Assembly (NCBI RefSeq): GCF_000819865.1
Contig: NZ_CDDF01000005.1
Span: 488,206-552,205, forward strand
Source: Aeromonas eucrenophila
Lineage (GTDB): Bacteria; Pseudomonadota; Gammaproteobacteria; Enterobacterales; Aeromonadaceae
Direction of reading: 5' to 3'
Length of the DNA: 64,000 nt
Part shown: piece after piece, positions 10,166 to 42,396 of the stretch
Position numbering within the stretch: position 1 is the stretch's first letter
How the letters are laid out: the number at the start of each line of letters is the position of its first letter
Made by a program: the position numbers and the translations under genes
The notes under the pieces: generated by a model
The model's input: the letters and a program-made list of their open reading frames with translations, nothing else
Database searches by the model: none
What the model was told of the DNA's origin: nothing

Positions 10166-11382
10166 GAGTGTTGATTGTATCAGCAAATAAAGAAGATAAT
10201 TTAGGTGATATATTAATTTATGAGTCTATCAAAGAGTATTTAAAACGCAACAATTGTCAGGTCGATTCCATCAACTATAGATTACAATACTATGATTTAA
10301 ATAGAAAAGATGTTTTTTCTACGAAAGATAATTTAAAGGATAAGGATAAGGATAAGGATAAGGATAAGGATAAGGATAAGGATAAGGATAAGGATAATGT
10401 TTTTTCATTTTTAATGAAAGTGAAAGAAATCTTCAAAAAGAATAGATCTTTTTATGTTTTCTTACAGATTATTTATTTTCTTTCGCGTGTGATTTTTTAT
10501 TTCAAGATCGCTAGGGAAAAATATAAATTAGCTGATGTAGTAGTTATCGGTGGTGGGCAGATTATAATGGATACAAAATATAGTATTTTGTTTTCATTAA
10601 ACCTTCTCTTTCATATATTCATGTCCAGGGTTTTTAGTAAAAAAATCCTATTTCTTGGGGTCGGCATTGCATCTAAATTCAATTTTAGTTTAACAGAAAT
10701 GGTGATTAAATACGGGTTTAAATGTGCCGATTCGATCATGGTGAGAGATGTCTATAGTTTCCATCGAGCGGTTAAAATACTTGGAGAAAGTAAAAAAATA
10801 TCATTTTCAATAGACTTGGCCGTACTGTTTCCTTGGGAGCCACATAATGATATGAATAATGTCGTTGGACTGTCGACTTTGCCATATTATGATGCTAGGT
10901 ATTTCCCTGTAAGTGATGAAATGAAATTTAAATTTTATAAAAATGCTATAAAAGAATGCTGTTATTACATTCAAAAAAACACTTCATATGGTGTAATTTT
11001 AATACCGACAACATCTATAGATGCTATTGTTGCTAAAGAAATAGATAGCTCTCTTGTAGATGAATCCCATAACATTACAGAGTTAATTAATAAAATCAAT
11101 AGCTGCTCTTATTTTATTGCAACAAGAATGCATTCATTCATTATATCCGTTGCGTTAGGGAAGCCAGCATTATGCTTTTATTGGGATGATAAGATAAAAG
11201 GGTTCGTATCATCATTCTGTGGTTTTGGTATTGATGAATATTTATTTTATGAAAAAGATTTCAGCCAGCCAGCCACAATGATGAATAGGTTGACCTCGCT
11301 CGATATCGCTAATTCGTACAACTTGAGCTATCACAGGACTAGATTAACAAAATGGATTGATAGTAATGTACTTGCTAATTAA
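10162..11382 (+). CDS. Polysaccharide pyruvyl transferase family protein
   Basis: The 406-residue protein shows the WcaK/CsaB/AmsJ-like pattern: an N-terminal SANKEDNLGDILIYESI, a glycine-rich VVIGGGQIIMD near the middle, and a C-terminal block CSYFIATRMHSFIISVALGKPALCFYWDDKIKGF. Members add pyruvate ketals to surface polysaccharides from phosphoenolpyruvate; some act as unrelated transferases. Residues around 59-78 are ten Lys-Asp pairs from a hexanucleotide repeat, an insertion in a loop after the first Rossmann unit. The start overlaps the GT2 stop by four bases. Confidence 0.78.
   Translation: MRVLIVSANKEDNLGDILIYESIKEYLKRNNCQVDSINYRLQYYDLNRKDVFSTKDNLKDKDKDKDKDKDKDKDKDKDNVFSFLMKVKEIFKKNRSFYVFLQIIYFLSRVIFYFKIAREKYKLADVVVIGGGQIIMDTKYSILFSLNLLFHIFMSRVFSKKILFLGVGIASKFNFSLTEMVIKYGFKCADSIMVRDVYSFHRAVKILGESKKISFSIDLAVLFPWEPHNDMNNVVGLSTLPYYDARYFPVSDEMKFKFYKNAIKECCYYIQKNTSYGVILIPTTSIDAIVAKEIDSSLVDESHNITELINKINSCSYFIATRMHSFIISVALGKPALCFYWDDKIKGFVSSFCGFGIDEYLFYEKDFSQPATMMNRLTSLDIANSYNLSYHRTRLTKWIDSNVLAN
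10336..10395 (+). repeat. (AAGGAT)10 hexanucleotide repeat
   Basis: Ten uninterrupted copies of AAGGAT encode a run of alternating Lys and Asp inside the pyruvyltransferase gene. Because the unit is six bases, copy-number change keeps the frame and would only lengthen or shorten this charged linker. Confidence 0.97.
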
Positions 11383-12886
11383 CCTGATGGTGATGGTGTT
11401 GTTATTTTCGGATGTGGTTGTTCATGGCTTGGTGACATTTAGCATCGGTCTATTACCGACACCCAACTCAATATCAAAGGCTGCTCTTATATCTTTTGTT
11501 TTTATTTATGTTGCTCTACATGCACATGATATAAAGAAAATATCTTTGTCACCAATAACACTCTTTCCTATATTATGTTTTAATCGAGAATTTTTGGAGT
11601 TAAAAACGTATACGTATACATTCTCTTTTTTTGACATGTATTTATTTTTTACATTATTTTATATTGGTGCTGTCAGTTTATTGGAAGACTTTTCTAGAAG
11701 AAAATTACGTAGGGGGATTGTTTACACTATTTTATTCTTGCTTGCAATAGGTGTATTGCAGGCTGTTTTTCACAATAAGCCAGAAAATACGAATGGTTTC
11801 CTTATAGTATATTTTTATCCCCTTATATATTTCATTATTCTATCTAGAATTAATTTGAATGTTGTTGATATCAGACATTCATTATTTACTATGCTTTTAG
11901 TGTCTGTGTTTATATTCGTATTGCAAAATATATATATAGGCCCATCAGTTGTATATCGTTCATCGGTTGAGCAGACATGGTTAACACAAAATATAAGCAT
12001 AGCAAATGGTGGGCTTCTTGAAATGGGGGCAATGGAAGTTTTTCTAATGCCGATAGCTTTCTATATAATATGGAATATTAATGAAATAAAGTGCTTTTAC
12101 AGTAAATACTATACAAGAATCCTTGTTGCGAGTGCAATGCTTGTTATTATGATGCCATTTATTTATCATAATCGAGCAAATTCTCTAGTCGTTCTATCAT
12201 TCATTGTGTTTTTAATTATCAAAAAAAATTCTATGAGAAGAGTTTTTTTATACTTTTCCTCTATAGTCCCTTTGCTTGTGTTTTATTTATATAGAATAGT
12301 TGTTTCTAGAAGTTTTGTCAGCGATGGCAAAGGGATTGATGTTCTCGGTTTTTCTATTAGTGGTATTGATAGCACTACATTTGATCATCTCAATTCAACA
12401 ATATTAGGGCTTGAGACTTTAACTAATAATTTATTTTTTGGCATTGGATTATTAACAGGCGCAAACTCTTTTTTAGCGGGGGATATTTATATTGGAAATA
12501 TGAGGAATTTTATTTTCCCTGTTATTGAAGTCGCCATTAGTATGGGGGGAGTCTTTTTTCTATCGTATATACTGTTAGTGGTTTTAATTTATCGTGCAAC
12601 TCAGGACTCTCTCATGAAATATCTGTTGTTGATACAGTTTATTCCCATTATAGGAGCAAACAAATTTTTTTCAGCATATGCAACAGGGCATTTCCCTGTT
12701 GATTCTGGTTTCTATGGACTTTCTGATTTTCCCCCGATAGCAATTACAAGTATTTCCTCTATCTATATATATTTGTTATGTACGATTAATGCCAATAATG
12801 CCAATAATGCCAATAATGCCAATAATGCCAATAATGCCAATAATGCCAATAATGCCAGTAATGCCAGTAATAAAAACAATCCCTAA
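11366..12886 (+). CDS. wzy: O-antigen polymerase (Wzy)
   Basis: A 506-residue polytopic membrane protein with about 10-12 hydrophobic segments, low sequence conservation and a large loop near residues 310-350, the pattern of Wzy polymerases. It is the only such protein in a cluster holding Wzx and Wzz, which supports the role. It would join repeat units at the periplasmic side. The ATG overlapping the previous gene's end is chosen; another ATG at 11387 just after the previous stop is equally possible. The C terminus ends in a tail of Ala-Asn-Asn repeats encoded by a nine-base repeat, not expected to be membrane-embedded. Confidence 0.78.
   Translation: MYLLINLMVMVLLFSDVVVHGLVTFSIGLLPTPNSISKAALISFVFIYVALHAHDIKKISLSPITLFPILCFNREFLELKTYTYTFSFFDMYLFFTLFYIGAVSLLEDFSRRKLRRGIVYTILFLLAIGVLQAVFHNKPENTNGFLIVYFYPLIYFIILSRINLNVVDIRHSLFTMLLVSVFIFVLQNIYIGPSVVYRSSVEQTWLTQNISIANGGLLEMGAMEVFLMPIAFYIIWNINEIKCFYSKYYTRILVASAMLVIMMPFIYHNRANSLVVLSFIVFLIIKKNSMRRVFLYFSSIVPLLVFYLYRIVVSRSFVSDGKGIDVLGFSISGIDSTTFDHLNSTILGLETLTNNLFFGIGLLTGANSFLAGDIYIGNMRNFIFPVIEVAISMGGVFFLSYILLVVLIYRATQDSLMKYLLLIQFIPIIGANKFFSAYATGHFPVDSGFYGLSDFPPIAITSISSIYIYLLCTINANNANNANNANNANNANNANNASNASNKNNP
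12791..12871 (+). repeat. Nine-base tandem repeat at the 3' end of wzy
   Basis: Seven copies of GCCAATAAT are followed by two variant copies, GCCAGTAAT. They encode ANN x7 then ASN x2 at the extreme C terminus of the polymerase. Changes in copy number stay in frame and alter the length of the hydrophilic tail. Confidence 0.97.
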
Positions 12887-12917
12887 TTATTTTTAATGAT
12901 TAATAATAGAGTTGATT

Positions 12918-14021
12918 ATGACAGCTAAGGCTAAAGTTCTATTTTTAACAAGAGGCTCTTCAAGTTTTATCTCTGGTGGTGATGTTGTTCAATTGAATAA
13001 AACCGCCTTGGAATTAGAAAACCTTGGGTATGATGTATTCGTAACCAATGATCTTTCTTATGTCGAAACTTTCCAACCAGATATTGTTCATTTTTCAGGA
13101 ATAAACCTGCAGTATAATATTTCAGAGGTTGTAAAAAAAATAAGAAAAGTAAAATCAGAAAGAAAAATTAAATTAGTAATGTCAACAATATATGTAAATT
13201 ATGAGCGTTATGAGCTTGACATTAGAAAGTCATTTTTTGTTAAGTTGATTATGCTTGTTTTTGGATATCGAAAATTAGAGTACTTTAAAGAGTTAGTCAG
13301 ATTGAGGAAGTTTAAATTTGGTAATATAATTAACTTTTTATTAAAGCCATCAAATTTCATATATGATGAGTATTTGACAGACATAGATTTATTTCTGCCT
13401 AATTCGTATGTGGAGGCTGAAAAGATAAAGTCTGATTTTAATATACCAGAAAGTAAAGTTTCGGTTGTTACAAATGGCTGTGATTTAACCAAGTATAATA
13501 CTTATGATCGTATTCCTTATAAAAATTTTGTGCTTTGCGTAGCTCGAATTGAAGAGCTTAAAAATCAAGTCGCCTTAGTTAAAGCATGCAAAATGGCAGA
13601 TCTAAATTTAATATTGGTTGGCTCTCTGAGTTATAGTCAAAAGAAATATTACAATGAACTTTTTAAGCATCTGGATGATAGAAGAATATATATAGGGCCT
13701 TTGTCTCAAGAGGAGCTGGTGCCTTACTATGAATCATGTAGTGTGCATGCTCTAGTCAGCCATTTTGAGACTTGTGGTCTATCTACAATGGAGGCCATCC
13801 ACTTTAAAAAAAGTGTTGTGGTATCCAATGTTGGATATGTAAGGGGTGTTTTTAATGACATTCCATTTTATTGTGATCCGAATGATATACCCTCTATTAG
13901 TAGCGCACTCAAAAGTGCCATTAATACAAAGACAGATAATGAATTATATGAAGATTTCATAAATAAAACCGTTTGGAGTATCGCTGCTCATCAAACTCAT
14001 GTGGCTTACCAGGGGTTATAG
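12918..14021 (+). CDS. Family 4 (GT-B) glycosyltransferase
   Basis: The 367-residue protein has an N-terminal SGGDVVQLNKTALELENLGY acceptor-side block and a C-terminal donor domain with CVARIEELKNQ and the EX7E motif in HFETCGLSTMEAIHFKK, marking a retaining GT4 transferase. It should add one sugar of the O-unit. ATG is preferred over a TTG two codons upstream. The spacing from wzy is 31 bases; the DNA is strongly AT-rich. Confidence 0.87.
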   Translation: MTAKAKVLFLTRGSSSFISGGDVVQLNKTALELENLGYDVFVTNDLSYVETFQPDIVHFSGINLQYNISEVVKKIRKVKSERKIKLVMSTIYVNYERYELDIRKSFFVKLIMLVFGYRKLEYFKELVRLRKFKFGNIINFLLKPSNFIYDEYLTDIDLFLPNSYVEAEKIKSDFNIPESKVSVVTNGCDLTKYNTYDRIPYKNFVLCVARIEELKNQVALVKACKMADLNLILVGSLSYSQKKYYNELFKHLDDRRIYIGPLSQEELVPYYESCSVHALVSHFETCGLSTMEAIHFKKSVVVSNVGYVRGVFNDIPFYCDPNDIPSISSALKSAINTKTDNELYEDFINKTVWSIAAHQTHVAYQGL

Positions 14022-14025
14022 TAAA

Positions 14026-15084
14026 TTGAAAATCAGCATAAATGTTATCGGAACAGTCGGTATACCAGCATGCTATGGTGGTTTTGAAACTTTGGTTCAA
14101 AATATGATCGACTCCCAATCAGAACACATCGAATATAATGTTTTTTGTTCCTCTCAATCTTATATAAAAAAGACTGCATATTATAAAAGAGCCAAATTAA
14201 TTTATTTGCCAATTAAGGCTAATGGTATATCCAGCATACCTTATGACATATTGAGCTTGCTTATCAGCCTGTGGACAAGACCGAATGTTACCTTGATACT
14301 GGGGGTATCTGGTGGTTTGTTTTTACCTATTTATCGGTTGTTTAGCACATCGCGTATTGTAACCAATATTGATGGGCTGGAATGGCGCCGTGACAAGTGG
14401 GGCCATTTTGCGAAGGCATTCCTTAAATTGTCTGAACGGTTTGCTGTGAAGTTTTCAGACGTGGTTGTCTCAGATAATCAAGCGATTGCCGACTATGTAC
14501 ATACTGAATATGGTGTGCAGAGTAAGGTGATTGCCTATGGGGGAGATCATGCTTTGCTGACAGATAAACTAATTCCTTCTGCAAAGGATGATTATTTTCT
14601 GGCACTATGCCGTATTGAACCAGAAAATAATGTGGCCATGATTTTAGGGGCATTTGCCAACAGCCAATATAAATTAAAATTTGTTGGTAATTGGGATACC
14701 AGCACTTATGGGCGGGAGCTTAAGAATCGATTTTCTAATTATGAAAATATTGATATTATTGATCCAGTTTATGATATATCAGATCTTTTTAATTTGAGGA
14801 GCCAATGTAAAGGATATGTTCATGGTCACTCGGCCGGTGGAACTAATCCCTCTCTTGTTGAGGCAATGCAATTTGGAATGCCTATATATGCATTTGATTG
14901 CACCTTTAGTCGTCACACCACTGATAATAGATCTTTTTACTTCTGTGATGGTGAATCGCTACGTCAGCTAATCGGTAAGCATAATGACAGGGCCGTTATT
15001 CAATCTGGCTTGGAAATGAAGAGTATTGCGGAGGAAAGCTATAAATGGGCTACTATCGTAGAGAAATATGAAGAAATTTATTGA
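14026..15084 (+). CDS. DUF1972/GT4 glycosyltransferase, probable rhamnosyltransferase
   Basis: The protein starts ISINVIGTVGIPACYGGFETLVQN, the signature of the DUF1972 N-terminal domain found in rhamnosyltransferases, and has a GT4 C-terminal domain with ALCRIEPENN and GTNPSLVEAMQFGMPI. A rhamnose role fits the rml genes but is an inference. I choose TTG at 14026, which follows AGGGG by ten bases and removes an unconserved leader; an ATG at 13999 inside the previous gene is the alternative. Length is 352 residues. The base composition begins to rise toward the flank in this gene. Confidence 0.82.
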   Translation: MKISINVIGTVGIPACYGGFETLVQNMIDSQSEHIEYNVFCSSQSYIKKTAYYKRAKLIYLPIKANGISSIPYDILSLLISLWTRPNVTLILGVSGGLFLPIYRLFSTSRIVTNIDGLEWRRDKWGHFAKAFLKLSERFAVKFSDVVVSDNQAIADYVHTEYGVQSKVIAYGGDHALLTDKLIPSAKDDYFLALCRIEPENNVAMILGAFANSQYKLKFVGNWDTSTYGRELKNRFSNYENIDIIDPVYDISDLFNLRSQCKGYVHGHSAGGTNPSLVEAMQFGMPIYAFDCTFSRHTTDNRSFYFCDGESLRQLIGKHNDRAVIQSGLEMKSIAEESYKWATIVEKYEEIY

Positions 15085-15206
15085 GCTAAAACCATAAATT
15101 ATACAGTTGAATAAGAATAATTCTCGCAACATATATTCCATTTTTGTATTTTATTGGAATATATATTTAACTGGTTGTCTGTACATAGAACCATTGGTAT
15201 CTTAAT

Positions 15207-16259
15207 ATGGAATATGTGGCGTTTTTTCTGATAGCTTTTTTGTTTTTATTTTTCCTACGTAAAGTGGCAAAAAAAATAAATCTTGTGGATCGTCCTAACG
15301 AGCGCAAGAAACACCAAGGCTTAATTCCTTTAGTTGGTGGTATATCGATCTACTTTACATTGATGTTTGCACTGTGGTTCAAGCCGGATTTGATTGCTAG
15401 CTCAGAAATCTATGTCCTATGTGCTTCTGTACTGGTTATAATGGGTGCTATAGACGATAAGTATGATGTCGACTATCGAATTCGCCTAGTAGTGCAAATT
15501 CTAATCTCTTGTGCAATGATTTTTGGTGCAGGACTTTCATTAAAGGGGTTAGGTCATCTGGCGTTTGGTCACGAGATCGCTCTGGGGCCCCTTGGCTATA
15601 TTGTAACTGTCTTCGCTGTTCTCGGTGCAATTAATGCGTTTAATATGGTCGATGGTATTGATGGGCTTTTGGGGGGGTTGACCATGGTTACTTTTGGTGC
15701 CCTTTCCTATATTCACTATGCCGATGGGCAGTTATTGCTAGCTCGATTTTGCCTATTGATGATGATCGTGGTTGTTCCTTACATATTTCTGAATTTAGGT
15801 TTCCCATTCGGGATTCGTAAAAAGGTTTTTATGGGGGATGCGGGTAGCATGCTGATTGGTTTCACCGTTATCTGGGCATTATTACAGGGAACTCAGGGGC
15901 CCAAGGCACAAATGAACCCGGTCACAGCACTTTGGCTGATCGCTATACCACTGATGGATATGACTAGTATCATGGTACGGCGTATTAGGAAGGGAGTTTC
16001 CCCCTTTAGACCTGACCGCGAGCATTTGCATCATATCTGTCTACGGGCGGGGCTATCATCACATCAGGCTTTGATTGTTATTTGTGGTGTCGCTATTTTT
16101 CTTGCTGGTGCGGGGATTGGTCTAGAATATGGTTCAGTACCCGAATGGATTAGTTTTTTGTTATTTTCTTCAGTGTTTTTTATTTATTATCAGTTGCTTA
16201 ATAACATCTGGCGAATTCTTGCTTGGATGAAGCCGAAGATTGCGAATCGCCCTGAGTGA
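15207..16259 (+). CDS. wecA: Undecaprenyl-phosphate GlcNAc-1-phosphate transferase
   Basis: Starts O-unit synthesis by moving GlcNAc-1-phosphate to undecaprenyl phosphate on the inner membrane. The 350-residue protein has about 11 membrane segments and the family motifs: DDKYD near residues 83-87, NAFNMVDGIDGL near 143-154, GDAGS near 211, and the cytoplasmic REHLHHI. Some Aeromonas homologues may use GalNAc, which sequence does not settle. It lies 122 bases after the last transferase and has intermediate GC content, so it may be a less mobile part of the locus. Confidence 0.92.
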   Translation: MEYVAFFLIAFLFLFFLRKVAKKINLVDRPNERKKHQGLIPLVGGISIYFTLMFALWFKPDLIASSEIYVLCASVLVIMGAIDDKYDVDYRIRLVVQILISCAMIFGAGLSLKGLGHLAFGHEIALGPLGYIVTVFAVLGAINAFNMVDGIDGLLGGLTMVTFGALSYIHYADGQLLLARFCLLMMIVVVPYIFLNLGFPFGIRKKVFMGDAGSMLIGFTVIWALLQGTQGPKAQMNPVTALWLIAIPLMDMTSIMVRRIRKGVSPFRPDREHLHHICLRAGLSSHQALIVICGVAIFLAGAGIGLEYGSVPEWISFLLFSSVFFIYYQLLNNIWRILAWMKPKIANRPE

Positions 16260-37286: not shown

Positions 37287-38033
37287 TCAGGCGGCGACGC
37301 AGTGCAGGGTCACGCCGCGGGCGGCGAGGGCGTCACGCATGGGGGCGGGCAGGGCATCGTCGGTGACCAGCACCTTGATCTGGCCCGGGGTGCCCAGCGG
37401 GCTGGGGTGGATGGCGCCAAATTTGCTGCTGTCGGTGATGACGATGTTGGTCACCCCCTTGGCCAGCACGCTGTTGACCACGTCGGCCCGCATCATGTCC
37501 CGGCCGGTGAAGCCGACGTCGGGGTGAAAACCGTCGACCCCGATGAAGGCCTTGGAGAAGTGCACCTGCTCGATGCACAGGCGGGTGAGGGGGCCCACCA
37601 CGCTCTCGCTCTGCTGTTGATAGAGACCGCCGAGCAGCACGACCTGGGCCTGGGTGTCTTTGAGCAGATGGGCGATGAAGCTGCTGATGGTGATGATGGT
37701 GATGCGTTTGTGCAGGGCCAGGTGGCGGGCCAGTAGGGCGTTGGCGCTGCCCCCTTCGATAAACACCGTCTCGCCATCCTCCACCAGCTGGGCGGCCCGC
37801 TCGGCGAGCCGCTCCTTGAGCGGATAGTTGATGTTCATGCGGGCATCGGGATCGTCGCTCTCCAGGGCCATGGCGAAGCCGTGCACCCGCTTGAGCAGCC
37901 CCTGTTTCTCCAGCGCGGTGAGATCGCCCCGTACCGTGACCTCGGAGACCCCGGTCAGTGCGGCCAGCTCGCTCACGCTCATCTTGTGGGCTTGGTGGAC
38001 CAGGGTGAGGATCTGTTGACGGCGTTGATTCAT
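37287..38033 (-). CDS. yciT: DeoR-family regulator, YciT type
   Basis: The 248-residue repressor has an N-terminal winged helix (MNQRRQQILTLVHQAHKMSVSELA...SEVTVRGDLTALEKQGLL) and a DeoR C-terminal sugar-phosphate sensor domain. HGFAMALESDD, FIEGGSANALLARHLAL, SFIAHLLKDTQ, VGPLTRLCIEQVHFSKAFIGVDGF, FTGRDMMRADVVNSVL and DSSKFGAIHP match E. coli YciT closely. DeoR members usually sense a phosphorylated sugar. It lies downstream of ybiW on the same strand with 168 bases between, so it may control the glycyl radical module; that is an inference. ATG at the helix start is used. Confidence 0.85.
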   Translation of the reverse strand: MNQRRQQILTLVHQAHKMSVSELAALTGVSEVTVRGDLTALEKQGLLKRVHGFAMALESDDPDARMNINYPLKERLAERAAQLVEDGETVFIEGGSANALLARHLALHKRITIITISSFIAHLLKDTQAQVVLLGGLYQQQSESVVGPLTRLCIEQVHFSKAFIGVDGFHPDVGFTGRDMMRADVVNSVLAKGVTNIVITDSSKFGAIHPSPLGTPGQIKVLVTDDALPAPMRDALAARGVTLHCVAA

Positions 38034-38155
38034 GAGATGGTTCGCTTCGAAAAGGGTGGAAAACAACATGGCGGCCAGTGCCGCCATCGGGATCCAGAGT
38101 CAGAGGCCGGCTTGGTACAGGGGATGATACCACTTTGCATAGCCGGCGATAAGAT

Positions 38156-38186
38156 GTTGAAAACGCTCGGGGAGAGCGTCTTCAAC
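38156..38186. repeat. Inverted repeat between ybiW and yciT
   Basis: GTTGAAAACGCTC and GAGCGTCTTCAAC pair in 12 of 13 positions around a five-base loop. On the ybiW strand no T run follows, so it may be a weak terminator or an operator for the regulator next to it. Confidence 0.6.
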
Positions 38187-38201
38187 AGCCTTCATCCGCC
38201 G

Positions 38202-40634
38202 TCAGAGGCTGTGCTCGGTGCGGGCGATGATGTCGTCCTGGGCATCCGGGGAGAGCGCGGTGAAGAAGGCGGAGTAACCCGCTACCCGTACCACCAGATC
38301 CCGGTACTTGTCCGGCTGCTCCTTGGCCGCCAGCAGGGTCTCTCGCGAGACGATGTTGTACTGCACGTGCCAGCCCTTGTGCACCTCGAAGAAGGTGCGC
38401 AGCAGGCTTATCAGCTTGGCCTTGTCCCGCGGGTTGTCGAGGCTCGCCGGGCTCAGCTTCTGGTTGAGCAGCACGCCGCCGAGGATAGCCTCGGTGGGCA
38501 ACTTGCCCAGCGAATTGAACACCGCCGTCGGCCCCAGACGATCGGATCCCGAGGCCGGGCTCGCCCCCTCTGCCAGCGGCGTCTTGGCGCGGCGGCCATC
38601 CGGGGTGGCCATGGTCGCCGCGCCGAAGGGCACGTTGGCGGAGATGGAGGAGGTGCCGGCGTAGTAGGTGCCGCCGATGGGGCCACGGCCGAAGCGGGTG
38701 TTGTGCAGCCCCTTGAGCTCATCTATGTAGCTCTGGTAGGCGCGTACCAGCAGCAGATCAACCTCGTCCAGATCGTTGCCGTATTTCGGCGCCGCGTTGG
38801 TGAGCCGTTGGCGCAGCAGTTCGCCAGGCAGCCCCGCGAAGTCCTGCTCCAGGGCCTCGGCCAACACGGCCTGATCGACCACTCCCTGCTCGAATACCAG
38901 CTGCTTGATGGCCGCCAGGCTGTTGCCGAGGTTCGCTATCCCCACCTGCAGGCCGGAGACCCAGTCATAGACGGCGCCCCCCTGCTTGACGGTCTTGCCG
39001 CGCTCGATGCAGTCATCCACGAGCGTGCTGCAGAGGATGTCGTGGGCCTGTTCCTCCAGTACCGTGTCCACCACGCAGTCGATCTCGATGGACTTGCGGG
39101 TGAAGTAGCGCACCTGCTCGTCCCAGCACGCCATCACCTCGTCGAAGCTGCCGAAGTTCCCCTCCCGCAGTGCCTGGAACTGGGACAGGAACACCTTGCC
39201 CGTGGTGGCGTCGCGGCCGCCGTCCAGGGCCGCCAGCAGGATGCGGGCGAAGTTGATGAAGCTCATGCCGGTGCAGCGGTAGCCCCACTTGCCGGGCACC
39301 GCGGTCTCGATGCAGCCGATGGCGGCGTAGTGGTGGGCGTCCTCCACGCTCACCCCGAGCTTGATGAACTCGGGGATGACGATCTCGTCGTTGTTGAAGG
39401 CGGGCATGCCGAAGCCGCAGCGGATCACCTGGATGCAGGCGTCGAGGAAGTCCTCGCTCATGCCCGCATGGTAGCGCACCGAGAGGTTCGGCTGGGTCGA
39501 GCGCAGCTGGCCGCAGGATTCCAGGATGGCGTAGGAGAGGCCGTTGACGGCGTCATGGGCCTGGCCGTTTCGCCAGTTCTGGCCGCCGATGGTGACGTTC
39601 TGATACAGCGGGCTACCGGCGGAGGCCTTGGAGTGGGTGCCGGAGCGGATCTTGTTCACCTCCAGCAGTTTCAGCCAGCAGGATTGCAGCAGCTCGAGGG
39701 CGCGGGCGCGGGGCAAGGATTCTGACAGCTCCACCTCCCGGCGATACCAGGGATAGAGGTACTGATCCATGCGACCAAACGACACCGAGTGGCCGTTGGA
39801 CTCGATCTGCAGGATGAGCTGGATGAAATAGCACAGTTGCAGCGCCTGCCAGAAGGTTTCCGGCGGCTGGTGGGCGATGCGGGCGCAGTTGGCGGCGATC
39901 TGCCGTAGTTCTTCGCGGCGCTCGGTGCGAGATTCGCTTCCCGCCATGTCGCGAGCCAGGGCGCCGTAGCGCTCGATATGTTCGCTCACCGCCTCCAATG
40001 TAATGGCCACGCCCTGCAGGAACTGCTCCTTCTGCAGATCTGCCCAGTCGGCGAGATCGAGCCGGCCACGACGCTCGCTCACGCGGGTCTGAAGGCCGGC
40101 CAGCCCCTTGCCGAGCAGCTCCTCGAAGTTGACCGCGAGGTGGGCATCCCCCGAGGTCATGTTGCCCTCGGCCTTGATGATGCCGCTCTCCAGCAGCGCC
40201 TTCTGTTCGTCGGTGAACATGCCAAAGCAGCGATCCTGCACCGTCTGGCCGCGCCAGAAGGGCGTCAGGGCGTGAATGGCCTGCTTGTCCGCCTCGCTCA
40301 CCGCAAAGCCGGCGCCGGGCCGCTCGGCCAGCTCGTCGATCTCTTTCTCAATCCAGCCCACGGTGTACTCGGGGAACAGCGGTGCGGAGCGCACCTGGCT
40401 CGCCTGGTTGCCGACGATGAGCTCGTCGTGCTTGATCCAGATGGTGCGTTCCTTGAGGTGATGGGCCAGGGCCAGGGCACGGCGCACCGGCAGCGGGCGG
40501 GCGAGGTGGGTCTGATAGGCCTCGGTATAGTGGCGGGCGCGCTCGGTGCAGACCGGCGGCTGGACTATGTGGATCAGGCTCTCCTTGTGGGCGCGGATCC
40601 GGGGGCTCAGGGTATTCAGGTCGAGCTGGGTCAT
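38202..40634 (-). CDS. ybiW: Glycyl radical enzyme YbiW (sugar-phosphate lyase)
   Basis: The 810 residues equal the length of E. coli YbiW and the sequence agrees almost throughout, for example CTERARHYTE, GRMDQYLYPW, LEVNKIRSG, HYAAIGCIETAV and RVAGYSAFFTALSPDAQDD. Gly786 in RVAGYS is the radical site and Cys in GCIE the thiyl site; GCxE rather than the CC pair of pyruvate formate-lyase marks an eliminase-type enzyme. YbiW was reported, as I recall it, to open 1,5-anhydroglucitol 6-phosphate to 1-deoxyfructose 6-phosphate. It works only without oxygen. It starts five bases after its activase gene, so they form an operon. Confidence 0.93.
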   Translation of the reverse strand: MTQLDLNTLSPRIRAHKESLIHIVQPPVCTERARHYTEAYQTHLARPLPVRRALALAHHLKERTIWIKHDELIVGNQASQVRSAPLFPEYTVGWIEKEIDELAERPGAGFAVSEADKQAIHALTPFWRGQTVQDRCFGMFTDEQKALLESGIIKAEGNMTSGDAHLAVNFEELLGKGLAGLQTRVSERRGRLDLADWADLQKEQFLQGVAITLEAVSEHIERYGALARDMAGSESRTERREELRQIAANCARIAHQPPETFWQALQLCYFIQLILQIESNGHSVSFGRMDQYLYPWYRREVELSESLPRARALELLQSCWLKLLEVNKIRSGTHSKASAGSPLYQNVTIGGQNWRNGQAHDAVNGLSYAILESCGQLRSTQPNLSVRYHAGMSEDFLDACIQVIRCGFGMPAFNNDEIVIPEFIKLGVSVEDAHHYAAIGCIETAVPGKWGYRCTGMSFINFARILLAALDGGRDATTGKVFLSQFQALREGNFGSFDEVMACWDEQVRYFTRKSIEIDCVVDTVLEEQAHDILCSTLVDDCIERGKTVKQGGAVYDWVSGLQVGIANLGNSLAAIKQLVFEQGVVDQAVLAEALEQDFAGLPGELLRQRLTNAAPKYGNDLDEVDLLLVRAYQSYIDELKGLHNTRFGRGPIGGTYYAGTSSISANVPFGAATMATPDGRRAKTPLAEGASPASGSDRLGPTAVFNSLGKLPTEAILGGVLLNQKLSPASLDNPRDKAKLISLLRTFFEVHKGWHVQYNIVSRETLLAAKEQPDKYRDLVVRVAGYSAFFTALSPDAQDDIIARTEHSL

Positions 40635-40638
40635 GATC

Positions 40639-41538
40639 TTATCCTCTGGTGATCGGGGTCAATCCGTGGCGTTGGGCGCAGTCATGGGCAAAGGCCAATA
40701 ACTCGGGGGCGTCGAGGGGCTGGTCCGGCGCCTCGTAGGGCAAGTCCAGCAGGGCGTACTTGCCCATGCCGAGGGTGTGGTAGGGCAGGAAGTGGATCTC
40801 CTCGACCCCGTCCAGGTCGGCCGCGGCCTCGACGATGGCCTTGATGGAATCCCGATCCGCGTTGAAGCCCGGGATGAGCGGCACCCGGATCTGAATGGGA
40901 ATGCCGCACCAGGCCAGGCGCTTGAGATTCGCCAGCACCTTGTCCGCCTTGCCGCGGGTCCACTCGAAGAAGCGGGCCTTGTCCACGTGCTTGAGATCCG
41001 CCAGCACCAGATCGAGGTGGGGCAGGCTCGGCTCTATCTGGTGCCAGGGCACGTGCAGGCAGCTCTCCACCGCGGTGTGCAGGCCCTCGGCCTTGCAGCG
41101 GGCCAGCAGCGTCGCCGCCAGTTCCGGCTGCATAAAGGGCTCGCCGCCGGAGAGGGTCACCCCGCCGCCACTGCGTTCGAAGAAGGGGCGATCCCGCAGG
41201 ATCAGGCCCATGAGTTCATCGACGGACTGCTCCTGACCGCACAGGGTCAGCGCCTCGCTCGGGCAGAGGTGGCGCAGCCCCTCCAGCTGGGGGCTGGTGA
41301 GACGACGGCGCTCGATCCGAAGGCGGTCTGCTTCCTTATGCAGGGCGGAGGGGCAGGCCTGCTGGCAGAGATCGCACCCCGCGAGGCAGCGCCTGGCATC
41401 GAACAGCAGCTCAGGCCTGGGGGACTGGCTCTCCGGGTTCTGACACCAGCGACAGGCCAGCGAGCAACCCTTGAAGAACACCAGGGTGCGGATACCGGGG
41501 CCATCGTGAGTCGAGTAACGTTGCAGGTCGAAAATCAT
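40639..41538 (-). CDS. ybiY: Glycyl radical enzyme activase YbiY (radical SAM)
   Basis: The 299-residue radical SAM enzyme cleaves S-adenosylmethionine to place the glycyl radical on YbiW. CSLACRWC holds Cys25, Cys29 and Cys32 for the [4Fe-4S] cluster. A ferredoxin-like insert follows with Cys51, Cys55, Cys58, Cys62 and Cys92 ([16 protein letters not shown]). [13 protein letters not shown] is the SAM-binding GGE motif. The start [18 protein letters not shown] is standard for the family. It heads the minus-strand operon. Confidence 0.92.
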
Positions 41539-41668
41539 GCGGCCTCTTCAGCGTGGTAAAGGTGCGGATCCGAGGGTGGGCACACAGCGCATTGGGTTGT
41601 GCTGGTCGCGCAGATGTCACCCTAAATCATTTGATCGACATCTTATTTGCTTTCGTTCGTAAGTTGAT

Positions 41669-41711
41669 TTGATTTTGATCAAGAGTTTGGGGGATAGGTT
41701 GTCGTTAGAAT
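41669..41711 (+). promoter_or_regulatory. FNR box and -10 for the aldolase gene
   Basis: TTGATTTTGATCAA (41669-41682) is a perfect FNR palindrome, TTGAT-N4-ATCAA. Its centre lies about 41-42 bases before the start expected from the -10 TAGAAT at 41706-41711, the classic activating position. The site is in the divergent region between ybiY and the aldolase, so it may also affect ybiYW. It suggests induction without oxygen. Confidence 0.8.
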
Positions 41712-41745
41712 GGCGACAGCTTGAACATCTCATTAGGAGTCAGAC

Positions 41746-42396
41746 ATGGAGCTTTATCTCGATACCGCCGATGTGGCCGCGGTGCGCCGCTGGTCCAGAG
41801 TTCTGCCGCTGGCGGGAGTCACCACCAATCCGAGCATTGCCGCCGCCGGGGGCCAGCCCCTGGCCAGCCTGCTGCCTGCCTTGCGGGAGGTACTGGGGCC
41901 AAAGGCGCGGCTGTTTGCCCAGGTGATGGCAAAGACGGAGGCGGGGATGGTGCGAGAGGCGTTGGCCTTGCGCGAGCTGGACCCGGATCTGGTGATCAAG
42001 ATACCCGTGTGCGGGGAGGGGCTGGCGGCCATCAAGACGCTGACGACGGAGGGGGTGCCGACGCTGGGAACGGCAGTCTATACGCCTCTGCAAGGTTGGT
42101 TGGCCGCCCTGGCGGGGGCCGAATATGTGGCGCCCTATGTCAACCGGCTCGATGCTCAGGGCGGTGACGGCATCAAGGCCGTGCAGGAGTTACAGCAACT
42201 GCTGGCGCTGCATGTGCCGGGCAGCAAGGTGTTGGCGGCCTCTTTTAGAACCCCGCGTCAGGCGCTGGATTGCCTGCTGGCGGGCTGCCAGTCCATCACC
42301 CTGCCGCTCGATGTGGCCGAGCAGCTGCTCAATGTGCCGGCGGTGGATGCGGCGCTTGCCAGGTTCGACCAGGATTGGCAGCGGGCCTTCGGCTAG
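41746..42396 (+). CDS. fsa: Fructose-6-phosphate aldolase (FSA/TalC-type transaldolase family)
   Basis: The 216-residue class I aldolase has the Schiff-base lysine Lys85 in LVIKIPV, and [36 protein letters not shown] motifs. FSA enzymes cleave fructose 6-phosphate or, more fittingly, 1-deoxyfructose 6-phosphate into glyceraldehyde 3-phosphate and hydroxyacetone. That is the next step after YbiW. TAGGAG sits six bases before the ATG. It is divergent from ybiYW with a 207-base shared control region. It may also be called fsaA or talC. Confidence 0.9.

Follow-up and report, generated by a model that had tools for sequence, protein, structure and literature searches.

The closest described system is that of Escherichia coli, in which YbiW converts 1,5-anhydroglucitol 6-phosphate (AG6P), made by PTS phosphorylation, into 1-deoxyfructose 6-phosphate under anaerobic conditions (PMC12441222, citing Ma et al. 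2024, JACS 146:26187). According to the cited parts of the same source, 1,5-anhydroglucitol is a blood sugar analogue used by gut bacteria via the YbiW pathway, its phosphate harms neutrophils in two human diseases, and PflD reaches the same product as YbiW from the mannitol epimer of its substrate, 1,5-anhydromannitol 6-phosphate. As for the regulator, the passages of PMC8464067 used here report that E. coli YciT bound upstream of ybiUVWY and fsaA in ChIP-exo, with a total of 49 sites including ybiO, cusF and ompX; that a yciT mutant showed altered expression of ybiV, ybiY and fsaA and grew more poorly in salt; and, in Table 2, that ybiO, ybiV and ybiY are YciT target genes. Furthermore, a preprint describes the enrichment of YciT on the ybiYW promoter from an aerobic lysate and the activity of this promoter in anaerobic E. 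coli cells (PMC12132413). An earlier note on the DNA studied here had proposed the AG6P pathway and a link between YciT and the module. Both proposals proved sound, although neither is new, as both had been reported for E. coli, where the main lines of the module are already described. What the present locus contributes is a genus whose regulator gene belongs to the cluster, to which the analysis adds a likely operator next to an FNR box, the joint inheritance of yciT and ybiW, whose linkage is likely ancestral, and clusters bearing a PTS. YciT is thereby given an operator that can be tested, together with a gene neighbourhood and a pattern of co-inheritance, and a candidate transporter is offered for the uptake step of the 1,5-anhydroglucitol pathway.

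The window, i.e. the whole stretch of 64,000 nucleotides from Aeromonas eucrenophila that was analysed, encodes the four proteins named in the earlier note (YbiY, YbiW, FSA and a YciT-type regulator), all of them recovered as open reading frames with the corresponding family models and domains. On the reverse strand appeared the gene of the YciT-type regulator of the DeoR family (37287–38033, assigned by similarity to E. coli YciT and by its family domains), ybiW (38202–40634), encoding a glycyl radical enzyme that matched the solved E. coli YbiW, and ybiY (40639–41538), encoding a radical SAM activase above the cut-off of TIGR02494 and with Radical_SAM and Fer4_12 domains. On the forward strand, fsa (41746–42396) encodes a fructose-6-phosphate aldolase above the cut-offs of TIGR00875 and NF009296. 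This type of enzyme would split 1-deoxyfructose 6-phosphate into glyceraldehyde 3-phosphate and hydroxyacetone, and Q59, K85, A129 and Y131 were conserved with respect to E. coli FsaA, of which we take Gln59, Lys85 and Tyr131 to be functional residues. The window's YbiW matched the E. coli structures 8id7 and 8yjn with 1450–1471 bits over residues 1–810, and its motifs GCIET (at 440) and RVAGY (at 783) occupied the same positions in E. coli HS; judging from these matches, it is a probable AG6P lyase. An action on some other substrate, e.g. the 1,5-anhydromannitol 6-phosphate of PflD or a diol, was also considered, since glycyl radical enzymes form a diverse family and PflD yields the same product from the epimer (PMC12441222). 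However, the scores fell to 549 bits for B12-independent glycerol dehydratase and 471 bits for PflD, against 1450 for YbiW, and fsa and yciT were retained beside ybiW, leaving such a substrate very unlikely. One additional protein of the PFL-like family is encoded in the window's genome.

For comparison, 80 loci (1.08 Mb in all) were kept out of 181 YbiW relatives, the nearest being 11 Aeromonas loci with YbiW 90–94% identical to that of the window. As in the window, the E. coli locus has ybiW-ybiY divergent from fsa, with YbiW 78% identical, and its ybiY-fsa gap contains a palindrome and an FNR-like box, TTGATGTGCGTCAA being found in E. coli HS where the window has a perfect FNR box. In contrast, E. 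coli HS has ybiV-ybiU behind ybiW, the place taken by yciT in the window, and in E. coli strain CUWW06 yciT lies near osmB, unlinked to ybiW. The window resembles the E. coli YciT regulon in its regulator (57% identity over 247 positions) and in the targets ybiY and fsaA reported for E. coli (PMC8464067), and differs from it in that the regulator gene is linked to its target. Likewise, PflD shares enzyme class and product with YbiW (PMC12441222), yet reached only the 471 bits mentioned above. The 11 Aeromonas loci showed neither ybiU nor ybiV. More generally, among the 18 loci where yciT is close to ybiW or fsa, ybiU and ybiV were not found in the examined stretch, opposite to the E. coli-type loci with ybiV-ybiU behind ybiW, so that yciT and ybiV-ybiU appear as two alternative neighbourhoods.

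The regulator contains the DeoRC and HTH_DeoR domains and starts at the ATG at 38033, where the homology to E. coli YciT begins, the mechanical open reading frame beginning at 38087. It scored 358.8 bits with the NCBIfam YciT model NF040887 (next family, 152), which is under the curated cut-off of 450, hence the name 'YciT-type'; it probably works like YciT. Between this gene and ybiW, two hairpins were predicted on the reverse strand. One of them, at 38068–38087, is terminator-like and was the only one returned by a terminator scan (0.2 in shuffles). The other, at 38155–38187 behind ybiW, escaped that scan because it has no T run, and contains the inverted repeat 38156–38186 that the earlier note had put forward as the YciT operator. 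The repeat does exist, being long and nearly perfect, but it forms a strong RNA hairpin at the 3′ end of ybiW (fold z of −5.06). Its sequence was absent from most related gaps; in the 17 loci with yciT behind ybiW, folding of the gap mostly gave a hairpin of different sequence (a comparison of plain folds). Moreover, the repeat is unlike the palindrome at the E. coli YciT targets, of which the ybiW-yciT gap of the window had no copy, and its role as operator is therefore extremely improbable.

The ybiY-fsa gap (41539–41745) contains a perfect FNR box, TTGATTTTGATCAA (41669–41682), conserved in relatives and the sole perfect match within the 64 kb, for which 0.11 were expected. At class II promoters, the pattern TTGAT-N4-ATCAA lies about 41.5 bp before the start, and this spacing was found between the box and TAGAAT (41706–41711, forward strand, 5/6), the predicted −10 of fsa, the start itself being a prediction; the activating distance claimed in the earlier note was thereby confirmed. 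On the other side, the predicted −10 of ybiY, TAAGAT (41640–41645, reverse strand, 4/6), stands at the distance from the FNR box that is seen in relatives, so that the predicted divergent starts are each about 42 bp from the box. A scan of the gap for a sigma-70 promoter with both hexamers returned none, which fits a promoter lacking the −35 element, though it is no evidence for one. These features were then compared across 65 gaps: 63 came from the 80 loci, 17 of which were dropped for showing no fsa match beside ybiY, and the remaining two were those of the window and E. coli HS. An FNR-like box, defined as TTGA-N6-TCAA, occurred in 62 of the 65 gaps and was perfect in 20, compared with an average of 0.26 in shuffled gaps, the shuffles ignoring ancestry. 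Among these 62, a hexamer with at least five of the six letters of TATAAT stood at class II spacing in 51 on the ybiY side and in 24 on the fsa side (6.4 and 2.7 in shuffles, respectively, again with ancestry ignored). With −10-like hexamers on both sides of the box, one FNR dimer would serve two promoters. The gap was 207 bp long in the window and 190 bp in L013, as opposed to 127–129 bp in each of the 10 remaining Aeromonas loci; in the former two, the additional sequence lies between the predicted ybiY start and the ATG. As to the 17 loci with no fsa match beside ybiY (17 of 81 in this tally, e.g. L033, L056 and L061), in L055 this was only due to the end of the contig; a different aldolase may serve in such loci.

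The palindrome CTTTCGTTCGTAAG (41650–41663), with one mismatch to CTTTC-N4-GAAAG, separates the FNR box from the ybiY −10 and lies close to the latter. In the window alone it would not stand out (one match vs. 1.68 expected at one mismatch). Across the sample, the strict palindrome was found in 57 of the 65 gaps, compared with 0.007 in shuffles that ignore ancestry. A total of 115 strict copies appeared in the 80 loci, 72 of them in the 250 bp upstream of ybiY and the other 43 at 8–23 bp from ybiU, on its upstream side, where they are present in 43 of the 47 loci showing a ybiU start. E. coli HS has an exact palindrome before ybiY-fsa, copies with one mismatch before ybiU and ybiV, and an exact palindrome 90 bp before ybiO, with two more one-mismatch matches in that stretch and a further one within ldtB in the ybi stretch. 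A composite palindrome-FNR pattern occurred in 12 of the 295 genomes of the order, and its reversed control in none of the 295. Within the genus, the exact form CTTTCRTTCGAAAG appeared as one copy in each of 17 out of 37 genomes (reversed control in none), 16 at ybiY-fsa and one before a LamB/PTS operon (G312), and ACTTTCGAAWGAAAGT was found in nine of 40 Enterobacteriaceae-type genomes, in seven of them at ybiY, in G018 ahead of the ybiU-yciT pair and in the ninth elsewhere. From this conservation and from its position before ybiY, ybiV, ybiU and ybiO of E. coli, of which ybiY, ybiV and ybiO are the targets listed in Table 2 of PMC8464067, the palindrome beside the FNR box is the likely YciT operator. 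The palindrome itself is not claimed to be unpublished, since a figure of PMC8464067 shows a YciT motif. In the window genome, 18 matches were found at up to two mismatches vs. 35 for the reversed control, i.e. no enrichment that would point to a genome-wide YciT regulon. Besides, the 3′ end of fsa in L157–L164 and L139 (families f12, f21 and f22) coincides with a strict palindrome or is closely followed by one, perhaps a second operator for looping; L139 has it also in the gap and before yciT. In G326 (L136), the palindrome site is distant from every module gene found by the queries.

Altogether, it is very probable that the locus is an AG6P module of anaerobic radical glycolysis joined to the gene of its regulator, under the control of FNR and YciT. 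In the mechanism that we infer (including activity in the window species, FNR and YciT binding, the direction of repression, the effector and the FSA step), YbiY would install the radical on YbiW, YbiW would convert AG6P into 1-deoxyfructose 6-phosphate, and FSA would split the latter into glyceraldehyde 3-phosphate and hydroxyacetone. Under anaerobic conditions, FNR on the single box at 41669–41682 would activate both divergent promoters, and YciT on the palindrome at 41650–41663 would block ybiYW, and perhaps fsa, until released by a phosphorylated sugar of the pathway. Counting against this explanation, three of the 65 gaps had no FNR-like box and eight had no strict palindrome; two matches with at most one mismatch in the E. 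coli stretches were inside genes foreign to the module; and no palindrome was found before yciT, i.e. at the regulator's own promoter, in either the window or the E. coli locus.

The distribution of the regulator was analysed in 295 genomes of the order, taking YbiW at 70% identity or higher and YciT at E ≤ 1e−40. YciT was present in all 30 genomes with YbiW vs. 21 of the 265 without it, a difference for which the Fisher test ignores ancestry, and by genus (tallied from the genome tables) in 15 of 15 vs. 5 of 84. In 22 of the 30 genomes, ybiW and yciT lay within 2 kb, in families f1, f12, f19, f21, f22 and f27. Regarding the unlinked genomes, yciT adjoined a piece of ybiW at a contig end in G276, and the other seven all belonged to f19, six with the genes distant from each other or split between contigs and the seventh, G258, with yciT moved together with fsa and the palindrome between these two divergent genes, apart from ybiYW. 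In the window's genus, ybiW was found in 21 of 37 genomes, all of which had yciT within about 500 bp. Given the linkage in six families and in all ybiW genomes of this genus, it is probably the older state, as read from this distribution rather than from a tree. Two more genomes of the genus carried yciT alone; in one of them, G210 (L137), just end pieces of ybiW and fsa remained beside it. In G312 (L169), which does have ybiW, the ybiW match was split near residue 30. Both G210 and G312 are cases of module decay within the genus.

On the other hand, YciT appeared without YbiW in 21 of the 51 YciT-bearing genomes, and a strict palindrome was found near yciT in four of the 13 such genomes examined, which points to other duties or other sites. 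In f19 and f22, yciT adjoined ybiU in all five genomes having yciT but no ybiW, with the strict palindrome in only one of them, and in f2, where 11 genomes have yciT without ybiW, a palindrome with a different middle stood before yciT in the three examined. It could then be argued that YciT mainly controls something else (YbiU/YbiV, or osmotic and envelope functions), the AG6P genes being one target among many and the enzymes remaining as described above, in line with the 49 ChIP-exo sites and the salt defect in E. coli (PMC8464067). Such a role is rather unlikely, since YciT accompanies YbiW in all 30 genomes that have the latter, with the two genes within 2 kb in 22, and since the strict palindrome in the 80 loci was confined to ybiY and ybiU. 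The earlier note had stated that a YciT regulon elsewhere would refute the regulator link: duties beyond the module are indeed suggested by the genomes lacking YbiW and by the E. coli sites, but the link itself stands.

The copies before ybiU also suggested a reading with two regimes, in which the YciT regulon would handle anhydroglucitol with and without oxygen, through YbiU aerobically and the FNR-driven YbiW anaerobically. YbiU would then oxidise, as a guess, 1,5-anhydroglucitol or its 6-phosphate at C1 in air, giving glucose or glucose 6-phosphate. This reading, which we regard as unlikely, draws on the palindrome that precedes ybiU at 43 of 47 loci, none of these 43 copies having an FNR-like box within 120 bp, on the adjacency of yciT and ybiU in five of five genomes (strict palindrome in one), and on YbiU itself, a DUF1479/Gig2-like protein in which an HTD and a later WWHCD-IH stretch were invariant in the six aligned sequences. 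These stretches resemble what we take to be the metal ligands of iron/2-oxoglutarate oxygenases.

Finally, the genes that could supply the phosphate were searched for, as the earlier note had advised. Queries for a PTS, a kinase and GldA gave no match in the window, and a candidate PTS was found in family f27, where 11 of 44 genomes have YbiW. In 10 of these 11, a strict palindrome precedes ybiY, and at the place of the FNR box all 11 have a CRP-like TGTGA-N6-TCACA, which is the CRP consensus (exact in six and with 9 of 10 letters in five), with no FNR-like box in the 250 bp upstream of ybiY in any of them (L154–L156 and L173–L180), as if sugar supply had taken over from oxygen as the controlling signal. 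In G102 and G356, two of the 11 genomes, yciT and fsa flank the genes for a lactose/cellobiose-type PTS (IIA-IIB-IIC), which diverge from ybiYW; in two of the 11 cases the contig is too short to tell. The IIA gene of G102 is preceded by a palindrome at about 118 bp, and G356 showed no strict palindrome there. The cluster of G356 also holds a ROK kinase, a beta-glucoside-type IIC and gldA, and G347 has an fsa-gldA pair; GldA could reduce hydroxyacetone. From gene content, the f27 clusters would thus hold candidates for every step from uptake onward, the lactose/cellobiose-type PTS being the candidate for the missing transporter.

In the window genome, the one single-mismatch match to the palindrome (G000:C5:751951-751964; L105) has a LamB-like porin gene on one side and, on the other, a PTS operon encoding a cellobiose-type IIC, DUF7916, GntR and a GH4-like protein. 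This operon was found in two of the 37 genomes of the genus, both carrying ybiW and yciT, and the second, G312, has the exact palindrome; as one region is nearly a copy of the other, the palindrome there is only a hint. The IIC of this operon was 29% identical to that of f27, which is no sign of orthology, and it was not accepted as its orthologue. As a separate observation, L177 (G348) contains tandem copies of an open reading frame of 286–291 amino acids (11302–15781), three of which are preceded by a duplicate of the last 33–34 codons of ybiW.
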